A stretch of 64,000 nt of DNA from Thermoanaerobaculum sp. GTDB lineage: Bacteria > Acidobacteriota > Thermoanaerobaculia > Multivoradales > UBA5704. A model generated the notes under the pieces. That model was not told the origin of the DNA, did no database searches, and was given only the letters and a program-made list of their open reading frames with translations. The translations under genes and the position numbers were made by a program. Of the stretch, positions 2,582-30,997 are shown in pieces; the stretch's first letter is position 1; the number at the start of each line of letters is the position of its first letter. The stretch covers positions 62,001-126,000 of the forward strand of contig JAJKHS010000082.1 in NCBI GenBank assembly GCA_021154885.1. The letters run 5' to 3'.

Positions 2582-3466
2582 CTAGCCCTTCCCTACCCGC
2601 CCCCCCTGCTCGTCGTAGGTATAGATTCCCCGCCCCGTCTTGCGCCCCAGGCGGCCGGCGCGGACGTGCTGCACCAGGATCGGGTTGGGGCGGAAGGCCT
2701 CGCCCAGGGTGCGGTGGAGGAACTCCAGGATGGAAAGCCGCACGTCGAGACCCACCAGGTCGATCATCTCGAAGGGTCCCATGGGGTGGTTCAACCCCAG
2801 CTTCAGGGCCTTGTCGATGTCCTCGGCCGAGGCCACCCCCTCCTGGAGCATGCGGAAAGCCTCGTTGCCGATCAGGGCGTTGATGCGGGTGGTGACGAAG
2901 CCTGGGGCCTCGTTGACCAGGACGACCTCCTTGCCCATCCGCCGGCCCAACCGGGTCAGGGCGTCCAGCGTCTCCGGCGCGGTCTGAAGGCCGCGGACCA
3001 GCTCGATCAGCTTCATCACGTGCACGGGATTGAAGAAGTGCATGCCGGCGAAGCGCTCGGGCCGCCCCGAGGCCGCGGCCATCTCGGTGATCGAGAGAGC
3101 CGAGGTGTTGGAGGCGAACAGGGCGTCGTGCGGCGCGTGGATGCTGACGGCGTGGAAGGTCTCGATCTTGAGGACCATGTCCTCCGGCACCGCCTCGATC
3201 ACCAGCCCGGCGCCCTCCACGGCCTCCGACAGATTGGTGTGGAGGTGGAGGTTGGCGAGAGCGGCCTCGGCGGCTTCCGGGGCGAGCTTCTTGAGCTCGA
3301 CGCCCTTGGCGAGGTTGCGGCGGATGGTGGCGTCGGCCTTCTGGAGGGCGCCCTCCTGGGTGTCGAAGAGATGCGCGTGGTAGCCGGCGACGGCGGCGAC
3401 GTGGGCGATGCCACGCCCCATCGTGCCGGCGCCGAGCACGGTGATGGTCGAGATTTCGGGTGCCAT
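2582..3466 (-). CDS. 3-hydroxyacyl-CoA (3-hydroxybutyryl-CoA) dehydrogenase
   Basis: This 294-residue protein is an NAD(P)-dependent dehydrogenase of fatty-acid or butyrate-type metabolism that interconverts 3-hydroxyacyl-CoA and 3-oxoacyl-CoA. The Rossmann fingerprint GAGTMGRG is at residues 12-19. The catalytic histidine lies in AGMHFFNPVHVMKLIELV and the partner asparagine region in NEAPGFVTTRI. Its length is close to the roughly 280 residues of stand-alone HbdH/PaaH enzymes, with no enoyl-CoA hydratase fusion. It starts 21 bases downstream of the ferritin-like gene stop on the same strand, so the two are probably co-transcribed. Substrate chain length cannot be told. Confidence 0.92.
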   Translation of the reverse strand: MAPEISTITVLGAGTMGRGIAHVAAVAGYHAHLFDTQEGALQKADATIRRNLAKGVELKKLAPEAAEAALANLHLHTNLSEAVEGAGLVIEAVPEDMVLKIETFHAVSIHAPHDALFASNTSALSITEMAAASGRPERFAGMHFFNPVHVMKLIELVRGLQTAPETLDALTRLGRRMGKEVVLVNEAPGFVTTRINALIGNEAFRMLQEGVASAEDIDKALKLGLNHPMGPFEMIDLVGLDVRLSILEFLHRTLGEAFRPNPILVQHVRAGRLGRKTGRGIYTYDEQGGRVGKG

Positions 3467-3487
3467 GATCTTCTTCAGGAGACAGGC

Positions 3488-4147
3488 TCAGGAGACGGGG
3501 AAATTGTGGAGGCCGGTCGTTTTGGCGGCCAGGTTGCGCAGCTCGTCGGCGATGGCCAGGGTATTGCGCACGGCGGAGGCGGCGAGCTCCTGGAGCTCGG
3601 GGGTGGTGAGGTACTTCTCCAGGATCTCCCGGCCGAGGTGGTGGTGGTGCGCCTCCTCGGGCTGAATGGTCTGGGCGTAGAGGCTCGCCGTCTCCTCGTC
3701 GCCCACGGAGCGGCAGAAGCTCACGAACTGGGCATTGCGCACCAGGGCGATGGCCTCGCTGGCGAAGGGGCCGGCGGCGATCCGCTCGACGGTGGTGCGC
3801 AGCCCCCGCAGATATTGGTAGAGGGGGCTGTGCCCCTCGGCCAGGGGGTCGAAGTCCGTCAGGTCCTCGCCCAGCTCCGCCAGGCGCTGGCTGATCATGC
3901 CGTAGTGCTTCATCTCGTCGCCACACTGCAGGGCGAGGGCCATCTTGGCGTCCACCTCGGGGGTGGTGGGCAGCCAGAAGCCGGCGAGCTCGCTGGCCTC
4001 CAGCTCGCTCTTCAGGGCCAGGCGCAGAAGGGTGACGACGTCCACGTTTCCCTCCGACTCGGACTCCAGCGTCTCCATTTCCCCCAGCCGCGCGAACAAC
4101 CGGCCCATCTCCTCGAGCAGTTGGGCGACGAATTCCTTGCCGTTCAC
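3488..4147 (-). CDS. Ferritin-like di-iron fold protein
   Basis: The 219-residue product is strongly helical and has a ferritin-like pattern of possible metal ligands: Glu50, an ExxH at Glu78-His81 (DEMKHYG), and a second ExxH ending in a histidine run (PEEAHHHH, about 163-170). Such spacing fits a four-helix di-iron carboxylate protein. I do not recognise a specific family such as PaaA/PaaC or MiaE, so enzyme or storage function is open. It sits upstream of the 3-hydroxyacyl-CoA dehydrogenase in what looks like a two-gene operon, which might hint at an oxidative step on a CoA- or acyl-linked substrate; that is inference only. Confidence 0.7.
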   Translation of the reverse strand: MNGKEFVAQLLEEMGRLFARLGEMETLESESEGNVDVVTLLRLALKSELEASELAGFWLPTTPEVDAKMALALQCGDEMKHYGMISQRLAELGEDLTDFDPLAEGHSPLYQYLRGLRTTVERIAAGPFASEAIALVRNAQFVSFCRSVGDEETASLYAQTIQPEEAHHHHLGREILEKYLTTPELQELAASAVRNTLAIADELRNLAAKTTGLHNFPVS

Positions 4148-4219
4148 AGGTGATTTCTCCTCTCAGGGCCCCTCGGGCGGAGGCCGGATCTCATTCTCCC
4201 GGTATTCTATCCCGCGCTA

Positions 4220-4843
4220 TCACGCCTCGACCGTCCGCAGCACGGCCCGGACTGGAGAGGCGTCGAGCCCCGCCAGCCGCAGCGGCAGGGCGATGAGCTC
4301 GTAGGTCCCCTCCGGCACGCCGTCCAGCAGCAGCCCCTCCAGGATGGCGACGCCGCCGCGGAACAGGGCGTGATGGGCGTCCAGCGTCTTGCTGTCGAAG
4401 GGATCGACCGAGGGCGTGTCCATCCCCACCAGCAGGGCTCCCTTCTCGGCCAGGAGGCTGGCCAGCTCGTGCGACAGGGCGGTGAACCTCTCGGGGAAGG
4501 TGCGGCGGTCGCGCACGCTCTCGCTGCGGAACAGCAGCCGGCCCGGATTGGCGAGGTCGATCCCCTCCACGTGGCGGGGCTCGATCAGCGGCTGAGGCGG
4601 GACCCGCACCACCCGGCAGAGCCCGAGGTAGCGGTCGAGGGGCATGTCCGCCATGCCCTCGCCCCGGGCCTCGGTGTGGAAGGGGGCGTCCGCGTGGGAG
4701 CCGAGGTGAGGGGTGGTGGTGATCATCGAGAGATTGACACTGGCCCCCTCGGCGATGGACCACGTCAGACGAGACTGGAACGGTGTGTCGCCCGGCCAGA
4801 CGGGGGTCTCCGGACGCACGGTGGGCGAGAGGTCATAGAGCAT
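4220..4843 (-). CDS. kynB: Kynurenine formamidase-like cyclase family protein
   Basis: The product (207 residues from the ATG at 4843) matches the KynB/cyclase family. It opens with LYDLSPTV and PVWPGDTPFQ, carries the metal-binding HLGSHADAPFH segment, and has the family's later CRVVRV, MDTPSVDPFDSK and ELIALPLRLAGLDASPVR blocks. KynB hydrolyses N-formyl-kynurenine to kynurenine and formate in tryptophan degradation. An in-frame codon nine residues upstream (4870) is possible, but homology begins at the chosen Met. No kynurenine 3-monooxygenase, kynureninase or tryptophan dioxygenase is in the window, so pathway membership is unproven. A GC-rich hairpin at 4878-4904 lies upstream. Confidence 0.85.
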   Translation of the reverse strand: MLYDLSPTVRPETPVWPGDTPFQSRLTWSIAEGASVNLSMITTTPHLGSHADAPFHTEARGEGMADMPLDRYLGLCRVVRVPPQPLIEPRHVEGIDLANPGRLLFRSESVRDRRTFPERFTALSHELASLLAEKGALLVGMDTPSVDPFDSKTLDAHHALFRGGVAILEGLLLDGVPEGTYELIALPLRLAGLDASPVRAVLRTVEA

Positions 4844-26559: not shown

Positions 26560-26588
26560 TTGACAGGTAGGGTCCGGTTTTTGATAAT
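26560..26588 (+). promoter_or_regulatory. Near-consensus sigma70 promoter for the double-HTH AT-hook gene
   Basis: TTGACA (26560-26565), a 17-base spacer and GATAAT (26583-26588) match the housekeeping consensus in 11 of 12 positions. The surrounding sequence is clearly more AT-rich than the rest of the window. About 65 bases of leader follow before the ATG at 26661. This is the best promoter I can see in the window and predicts strong expression. Confidence 0.8.
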
Positions 26589-26660
26589 GAGTCTGGATTT
26601 TGAAAGTACCCGTCTCATCTCATAGATTCCGATACCCAACGAGGAGGCAAAAGGAACATC

Positions 26661-27500
26661 ATGGCTGAACCTGAAACCCAGCGCCGGACCGATACGGCGG
26701 AGGACAAGCTCTACACACTCTCCGAGATTTCGCAGAAGAGCGGCATTTCGATGCCGACCCTTCAACGCTACAAGAAGCTTTATCAGGACCGGATCCCCTC
26801 GGTCGGCAAGGGGCGCAAGCAGCGCTATCCCGACAGCGCGCTGCCGGTCTTCGATGAAATCAAGAACGAGAACGTCGGTCGCCGGGGCCGGCCGCGCAAG
26901 GACGCGTCCGCGCCGCGGGCCGAGAAGAAGCCGGTGGCGAGCAAGCGCCGTCCCGGCCGTCCCGCCAAGGCCGCCGCATCAAAGCGGGGTGGGCGCAAAA
27001 CGTCACCGGCGGCGGCAGCGCCGGCGCCGGCCGCTCGCCGCGGCCGTCCGCGCAAGAACGCGCCCGCTCCGGCTCCGGCGCGCGGTGGGCGCGCACAGAA
27101 GAAGTCCGGCAATCTCCTGACGCTGACGCAGATCAGCGAGACGACGGGGATCTCCTATCCGACGCTCGTGCGCTACGTCCGCCTCTACTCCGATCGCCTG
27201 CCGCACGAGGGCAAGGGCCGCGCGCGGCGTTTCCATCCGCAGGCGGTGGAGGCTTTCCGCCAGCTCCGCAGCGAGAGCGGCCGCGGCGGCCGCAAGAAGG
27301 GCTCGGGCGCCGGTCGTCCACCCGGTCGTCCACCCGGTCGTCCACCCGGCCGTCCGCCCGGTCGTCCGGCCGGGCGCGGGATCGCGAGCGATCTGAGCCA
27401 GGCGGTGGCGCAGCGCATCAAGGCGATCGAAAAGGGGCAGCAGAGCCTCGAGAAGAAGCTCAAGGGACTGGTCAAGAACCTGCAGAAGCTTTTCCGCTGA
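26661..27500 (+). CDS. DNA-binding protein: two MerR-like HTH domains joined by AT-hook linkers
   Basis: The 279-residue protein has an internal duplication. Residues 17-71 and 152-206 align at about half identity (both contain GIS.PTL.RY..LY.DR.P..GKGR), each a MerR-type winged-helix start with recognition helix and wing. Between them lies a basic, Ala/Pro-rich linker with two AT-hook cores (RRGRPRK) and one PGRPAK. After the second HTH comes a run of PGRP repeats (about 217-237), then a lysine-rich coiled-coil helix to the end. No ligand-binding domain is present. A nucleoid-organising or global regulatory role is inferred. GAGGAGG precedes the ATG by about 15 bases. Confidence 0.8.
   Translation: MAEPETQRRTDTAEDKLYTLSEISQKSGISMPTLQRYKKLYQDRIPSVGKGRKQRYPDSALPVFDEIKNENVGRRGRPRKDASAPRAEKKPVASKRRPGRPAKAAASKRGGRKTSPAAAAPAPAARRGRPRKNAPAPAPARGGRAQKKSGNLLTLTQISETTGISYPTLVRYVRLYSDRLPHEGKGRARRFHPQAVEAFRQLRSESGRGGRKKGSGAGRPPGRPPGRPPGRPPGRPAGRGIASDLSQAVAQRIKAIEKGQQSLEKKLKGLVKNLQKLFR
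27312..27371 (+). repeat. Five 12-bp tandem repeats inside the AT-hook gene
   Basis: GGTCGTCCACCC is repeated five times with slight drift, coding for successive PGRP units. Such in-frame repeats can expand or contract by slippage without frameshift, changing the number of minor-groove-binding units. Confidence 0.85.
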
Positions 27501-27529: not shown

Positions 27530-27565
27530 AAGACCCCGGCGTCGCGCCGGGGTCTTTCATTTTTT
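27530..27565. terminator. Rho-independent terminator
   Basis: AAGACCCCGGCG (27530-27541), a three-base loop and CGCCGGGGTCTT (27545-27556) form a perfect 12-bp stem, followed by a T-rich tail with six consecutive T residues at 27560-27565. It ends the AT-hook gene transcript; the stem abuts the thiL stop on the opposite strand and may work in both directions. Confidence 0.9.
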
Positions 27566-28564
27566 ACCGTCTGAAAGGTGATCCCAGCCTGCGTTGGACA
27601 GCTCCCTCCGGGCGCCGTCGCGCACGATGAAGAGGCCGCGGCGAGTGATCGCTCCAATGCGCCGGCCGCCGAGCTCGGGCGGCGGCGCGAGCTCTGGCGG
27701 CAGGGTGAAGATCAGCACATAGTCCTCGCCGCCGGCGAGCGCCAGCTCCAAAGGATCGGCACCGAGCGCTGCGCAGAGCGTCGTGAAGCTCGCTGTGAAA
27801 GGCAGCGCTTCGGCCGCGATCTCCGCGCCCACGCCGCTTTCGTGACAGAGACGATGGAGATCGCGCGCCACCCCGTCGGATACGTCCATCGCCGCGATCG
27901 TGGCGCTGGTCGCGGGCTGCGCGCCCAGCCAGCGGCCGAGGGCGAGCTGCGGCTGTGGCCGCAGATGGCGGCGGACGGCTCGCCGCGCGGCAGCGCGCAA
28001 TGGGGAAGAAAACGCTTGGCAAAAGGCGGGAAGATCGACGCGTGAACCGGCGAGACGGGCGCCGCGCTCGATCAGCAGCCGGCCGGCGGCGGATTCGCCC
28101 ACCGTCCCACCCAACCATAAAGCGTGCCCCGGCTCGGCGCCGCGGCGTTGCAGCCAGCGGGCGTCCTCGTCTTTCGTTCCGATCAATGTCAGCGTCGCGA
28201 TGGTGCCGCCGGGGTGCCGCGCCAGATCGCCGCCAGCGAGGGTCAGGCCGTACCGCCGGCCGGCGGCGAGGAACGACAGGAAGAATTTTTTGTGATCGAA
28301 GCCCGGCGCCGCGGAGAGGGCGAGGAAGGCGTAGGCGGGGATGGCGCCCATCGCCGCGAGATCCGAAAGGTTCACCGCCAGCAGGCGGCGGGCGAGATCG
28401 GCTTCCGCAAGATCCGGCGGGAAATGAACGCCGGCGATCTGGCTGTCCACCGTCACCGCCACTGCTCCGAGGGAAGGAAGGATGGCGGCGTCGTCGCCGA
28501 TCAGCGGCGTCACGAGCCGGCCGCGCAGCCAGCGCAGGAGCCGGTCCTCGCCGTTCGCGGACAT
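27557..28564 (-). CDS. thiL: Thiamine-monophosphate kinase
   Basis: ThiL phosphorylates thiamine monophosphate to the active cofactor thiamine pyrophosphate. The 335-residue protein has GDDAAIL near the start, TVDSQIAGVHF, NLSDLAAMGAIP, GGDLARHP, MDVSDGVARDLHRLC and LAGGEDYVLIFTLP, the standard metal and nucleotide-binding sites. I use the Met at 28564; a longer frame upstream is proline-rich and runs into lon. It follows lon by 16 bases. Confidence 0.92.
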   Translation of the reverse strand: MSANGEDRLLRWLRGRLVTPLIGDDAAILPSLGAVAVTVDSQIAGVHFPPDLAEADLARRLLAVNLSDLAAMGAIPAYAFLALSAAPGFDHKKFFLSFLAAGRRYGLTLAGGDLARHPGGTIATLTLIGTKDEDARWLQRRGAEPGHALWLGGTVGESAAGRLLIERGARLAGSRVDLPAFCQAFSSPLRAAARRAVRRHLRPQPQLALGRWLGAQPATSATIAAMDVSDGVARDLHRLCHESGVGAEIAAEALPFTASFTTLCAALGADPLELALAGGEDYVLIFTLPPELAPPPELGGRRIGAITRRGLFIVRDGARRELSNAGWDHLSDGKK

Positions 28565-28580
28565 CAGCCTCGGTCGGACC

Positions 28581-30997
<2,417 letters not shown>

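Follow-up and report, generated by a model that had tools for sequence, protein, structure and literature searches.

The gene at positions 26661-27500 of the window, as we call the whole 64,000-nucleotide stretch of acidobacterial DNA analysed here, raises the question of what purpose is served by a protein with two HTH modules and two AT-hooks, which the first-pass annotation took to be an abundant nucleoid-structuring or global DNA-bridging protein. In the full-text literature, a search combining nucleoid-associated proteins, Acidobacteriota and AT-hooks found nothing on the subject, and no papers were found on transcriptomes of Thermoanaerobaculia with DNA-binding proteins. We examine what its sequence, genomic setting and relatives say about the role of this tandem-HTH protein. 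All window coordinates refer to the plus strand unless stated otherwise.

The open reading frame is preceded by a Shine-Dalgarno region (GAGGAGG plus spacer ahead of the start codon, 26641-26660) and encodes 279 amino acids, with a calculated pI of 11.6 and a charge of about +46 at pH 7. Pfam finds two stretches each for HTH_17 (40.8 bits, E 2.6e-10, cut-off 27) and MerR_1 (30.5 bits, E 4.1e-7, cut-off 21.6), so that the winged HTH exceeds the cut-offs of both families, with the best HTH_17 and MerR_1 stretches at residues 152-200 and 18-68. Together with alignment and AlphaFold, these matches delimit module 1 at residues 17-71 (26709-26873; recognition helix SMPTLQRYKKLY) and module 2 at residues 152-206 (27114-27278; recognition helix SYPTLVRYVRLY). 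The two modules are identical at 26 of 55 residues. Their alignment has a BLOSUM62 score of 140, whereas shuffled sequences reach 22 +/- 4 (maximum 41), so the duplication is real.

Directly behind module 1 lies an AT-hook, RRGRPRK (residues 74-80; 26880-26900), seen in the sequence and in the ortholog alignment. It is followed by a disordered basic linker (about residues 81-148; 26901-27104; AlphaFold pLDDT below 50), in which RRGRPRK, with its R-G-R-P core and basic flanks, occurs for the second time (residues 126-132), in addition to a third, hook-like motif, RPGRPAK (residues 97-103). This first linker alone has a calculated charge of about +23 over 74 residues. Module 2 leads into another disordered linker (residues 217-240; 27309-27380), which contains a run of PGRP repeats at approximately residues 217-237, and the chain ends in a helix (about residues 242-279; 27384-27497) that is also apparent in the ortholog alignment. 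Both HTHs and this helix are predicted by AlphaFold with a block pLDDT near 95 (about 89-97 over residues 251-279), whereas the linkers fall below 50. Reading the sequence of the helix gives an unbroken 4-3 heptad (V249, I253, I256, Q260, L263, L267, L270, L274 and L277), which resembles that of a two- or three-stranded coiled coil. No effector domain was found with Pfam or NCBIfam. The domain layout described in the first-pass annotation, down to the repeat run and the coiled-coil end, is thus borne out, and extended by the hook-like third motif. The same genome also encodes a 108-amino acid paralogue (L002:1507-1833), in which one HTH is combined with a KGRPRK hook and a short, helix-like C-terminal tail.

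The protein departs from the known families with which it shares parts. The classical MerR layout consists of an HTH, a coiled coil and an effector-binding domain, whereas here tandem HTHs are separated by a disordered linker and the effector domain is missing. AT-hook proteins such as HMGA, and histone-H1-like bacterial proteins such as those with the AT-hook region of Myxococcus CarD, have GRP hooks and disordered basic linkers rich in K, R, A and P; the tandem-HTH protein is alike in both respects, but adds HTH modules that would read sequence. Neither an H-NS nor an Lsr2 DNA-binding domain is among its Pfam matches. H-NS, Lsr2, MvaT and Rok (PMC6936261, PMC4466236, PMC6212790) are bridging xenogeneic silencers that combine DNA binding with oligomerisation, several of them using AT-hook-like minor-groove contacts, but their fold is unrelated and their domain order different. 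Sequence searches of the PDB gave chance-level matches only. The fold matches are MerR-type winged HTHs, including RacA-DNA, RdfS and BldC-DNA complexes, none of them at E <= 0.001, weak values for a chain much of which is disordered.

The expression signals of the gene are unusually clear. Upstream lies a near-consensus sigma-70 promoter, TTGACA-N17-GATAAT (26560-26588), which matches the consensus at 11 of 12 positions and is the sole match at that level in the window, in keeping with the strength first attributed to it. The core pattern TTGAC-N19-ATAAT occurs once in the window and 8 times in the whole 8.2-Mb genome, where the reversed control pattern has 0 matches. In the loci of relatives (245 kb) all 12 occurrences lie just upstream of the tandem-HTH gene on the same strand, as do 15 of 15 when the pattern is relaxed to ATACT and spacers of 16-18; the 11/12 matches in these loci, seven in number, likewise all sit at this gene. 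The relaxed form is found at the same position in most syntenic relatives. The pattern was not seen in 8 of the 23 named loci, some of which are truncated by the end of their contig, and the three-module orthologues that were examined do not show it either. One orthologue (L054) retains unchanged -35 and -10 elements separated by a 19-bp spacer, typical of MerR-controlled promoters. The spacer and untranslated sequences vary between relatives, and selection therefore seems to target the promoter elements themselves; no conserved operator or binding motif stands out upstream of the gene, only the promoter words. Two other near-consensus promoters of the host genome precede transposase-like open reading frames (L077 and L084), which begin about 7 bases past the -10 box, so that their leaders would be very short or absent, and no Rfam RNA or tRNA genes were found behind the host's other near-consensus promoters.

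Downstream, an intrinsic terminator with a 12-pair stem and a T tail (27530-27556; -23.1 kcal/mol) confirms the one first noted, and many relatives likewise have a terminator-like hairpin behind the gene. Judged by these signals, few promoters of the genome come as close to the consensus as that of this gene, and it is kept across genera; the conservation of promoter and hairpin provides strong, if indirect, evidence that the gene is monocistronic and is expressed strongly and simply. Codon usage was considered as a further proxy for expression, and the gene ranks first among the 47 genes of the window in resemblance to the ribosomal set. We rejected this proxy, since ribosomal and other genes hardly differ in codon usage in this genome and the rank therefore says little about expression.

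Homologues with the same architecture, the search for which had been suggested by the first reading, were found in the window's order, together with relatives of three and four modules. Of 59 near relatives, 44 gave a match, which was weak in a few cases. A 19-row profile matched 37 of the 120 genomes sampled from the class, every one within the window's order. The named relatives are Acidobacteriota, several of them Thermoanaerobaculia. Orthologues are present in most sampled genomes of this one order (Thermoanaerobaculia) and essentially absent outside it among 297 sampled genomes of the phylum, where the profile reached E <= 1e-15 in only two other genomes, with one related module each in a different architecture. 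In the proteins of two loci from another family of the phylum (L101 and L102), a related single HTH (QLFTLTEMAAKTGISLASLSKY...) is accompanied by a GRRGG tail within a larger, different architecture.

Across 19 two-module orthologues the alignment contains 40 invariant columns, most of them within both HTHs and the GRP hook; they include residues of both recognition helices, the G.GR..R of the wing and the GRP directly after module 1, whereas the linkers are free to vary in length and sequence. Three modules occur in one family, and four in a single genome. In the four-module relative (L103, about 2650-4290; G047, contig C1) the final two HTH units hardly differ; a long acidic EEAAAP repeat comes next, and then a C-terminal coiled coil of the same type. 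The tandem-HTH protein is a real, uncharacterised and order-specific protein that, by its domains, binds DNA, and its family is a modular, bead-on-a-string array with evolving valency.

The gene also occupies a fixed place. An all-against-all comparison of open reading frames in the 23 named loci and the window revealed the order aroA - sigma54 activator - tandem-HTH gene - thiL - lon - nrdR, where all the neighbours, of which those at aroA, the sigma54 activator, thiL and nrdR are '-like' assignments, are named from reading their sequences. About 20 of the 23 loci share this neighbourhood, with the sigma54, thiL and lon neighbours recurring in about 20; the convergent thiL-like gene lies at 27557-28654 on the minus strand of the window. 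In several genomes of the same order, the approximately 1.5 kb beside thiL holds no recognisable tandem-HTH open reading frame. At that position the gene thus seems to be truly missing, and the protein is therefore not universal in the order. Nor is it the sole architectural protein of its host, given that the genome has four HU-family genes and one H-NS-family gene; Lsr2 is absent. The H-NS-family gene (L111; C22:68947-69060, minus strand) encodes 110 amino acids with a C-terminal H-NS-family domain (PF00816, E 4e-17), and its presence led us to reject the idea that the tandem-HTH protein substitutes for a missing H-NS.

We consider it somewhat probable that the protein is an order-specific, multivalent nucleoid-associated protein. 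Each MerR/BldC-like winged HTH module of about 55 amino acids would recognise a short element through the major groove of the DNA, and the basic GRP-type hook beside it would hold the adjoining minor groove, an added contact to which the invariance of the hook points. As the recognition helices are similar, both modules should recognise the same kind of element. A flexible cationic linker joins them within the chain, and the disorder and variability of such linkers speak against a set distance between the two sites. The C-terminal coiled coil would pair chains, bringing at least four DNA-binding modules into one complex that may sit on repeated sites or tie separate DNA segments together. Bridging or coating of DNA at repeated elements has, in our estimate, slightly better than even chances of being what the protein does. 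It is probably abundant, a view supported by a promoter that many orthologues have retained and that is found at almost no other gene.

The serious rival is a global transcription factor of the BldC type, whose linked winged HTHs would occupy direct repeats at many promoters, repressing or activating them, with chromosome structure as a side effect. BldC of Streptomyces is a MerR-like winged HTH protein that has no effector domain and multimerises cooperatively, lining up head to tail on direct repeats (PMC5859096). A covalent tandem with similar recognition helices would suit such repeats, and BldC-DNA complexes are among the fold matches. However, BldC, whose family binds AT-rich direct repeats, has 68 residues, with a single small winged HTH serving both DNA contact and oligomerisation, and lacks coiled coil, hooks and long basic linkers, whereas here two to four modules are covalently linked and end in a coiled coil; the freely varying linkers of the orthologues also argue against a fixed site spacing. 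We regard this alternative as rather unlikely and as fitting less well than bridging or coating. Our best reading takes in both roles: an order-specific, probably abundant and multivalent nucleoid-associated protein or global regulator, which would act as an array of covalently joined BldC units whose tail dimerises.

A chromosome anchoring or segregation factor, tethering DNA to another structure through winged HTH and coiled coil, is suggested by RacA of Bacillus subtilis, which acts on the chromosome, has a MerR-like HTH followed by a coiled coil and no effector domain, and whose DNA complexes are among the best HTH fold matches, with weak E-values. RacA has a single HTH and no AT-hook tandem, as against two or more HTHs here; the PDB search gave no RacA sequence match, and the tandem-HTH protein shows no membrane-targeting or partner-binding motif, which makes this role improbable. 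No more credible is a local regulator of aroA, the sigma54 activator, thiL, lon or nrdR, or a ligand-responsive MerR regulator. The strongly conserved neighbourhood and an HTH family that is that of MerR regulators speak for it, but the gene has its own promoter and terminator, its neighbours have unrelated housekeeping functions, no shared upstream motif was found apart from the gene's own promoter, and the protein has no effector domain.

The nucleoid-structuring or global role originally proposed is thus plausible, and the expression signals have strengthened it. Vertical inheritance in a fixed place, the lack of a ligand domain, variable numbers of modules on charged, disordered linkers and a conserved coiled-coil tail fit it, while the absence from part of the order, the HU- and H-NS-family genes of the host and the BldC-like alternative weigh against it. 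The protein probably helps to organise the chromosome or controls many genes. A bolder proposal, that it represents a new class of bacterial chromatin protein in which arrays of two to four BldC/MerR-type modules combine with AT-hooks, cationic disordered linkers and a coiled-coil tether, is tentative and falls short of an even chance, a judgement that covers jointly its sequence-reading nature, its near-consensus promoter and its restriction to one Acidobacteriota order.

How Acidobacteriota organise their chromosomes seems to be poorly known, and the tandem-HTH protein, encoded in a conserved core neighbourhood, offers a concrete candidate for a chromatin protein that would be abundant and specific to one order. 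Its orthologues with two, three and four modules would provide a natural series for the effect of valency on DNA binding.
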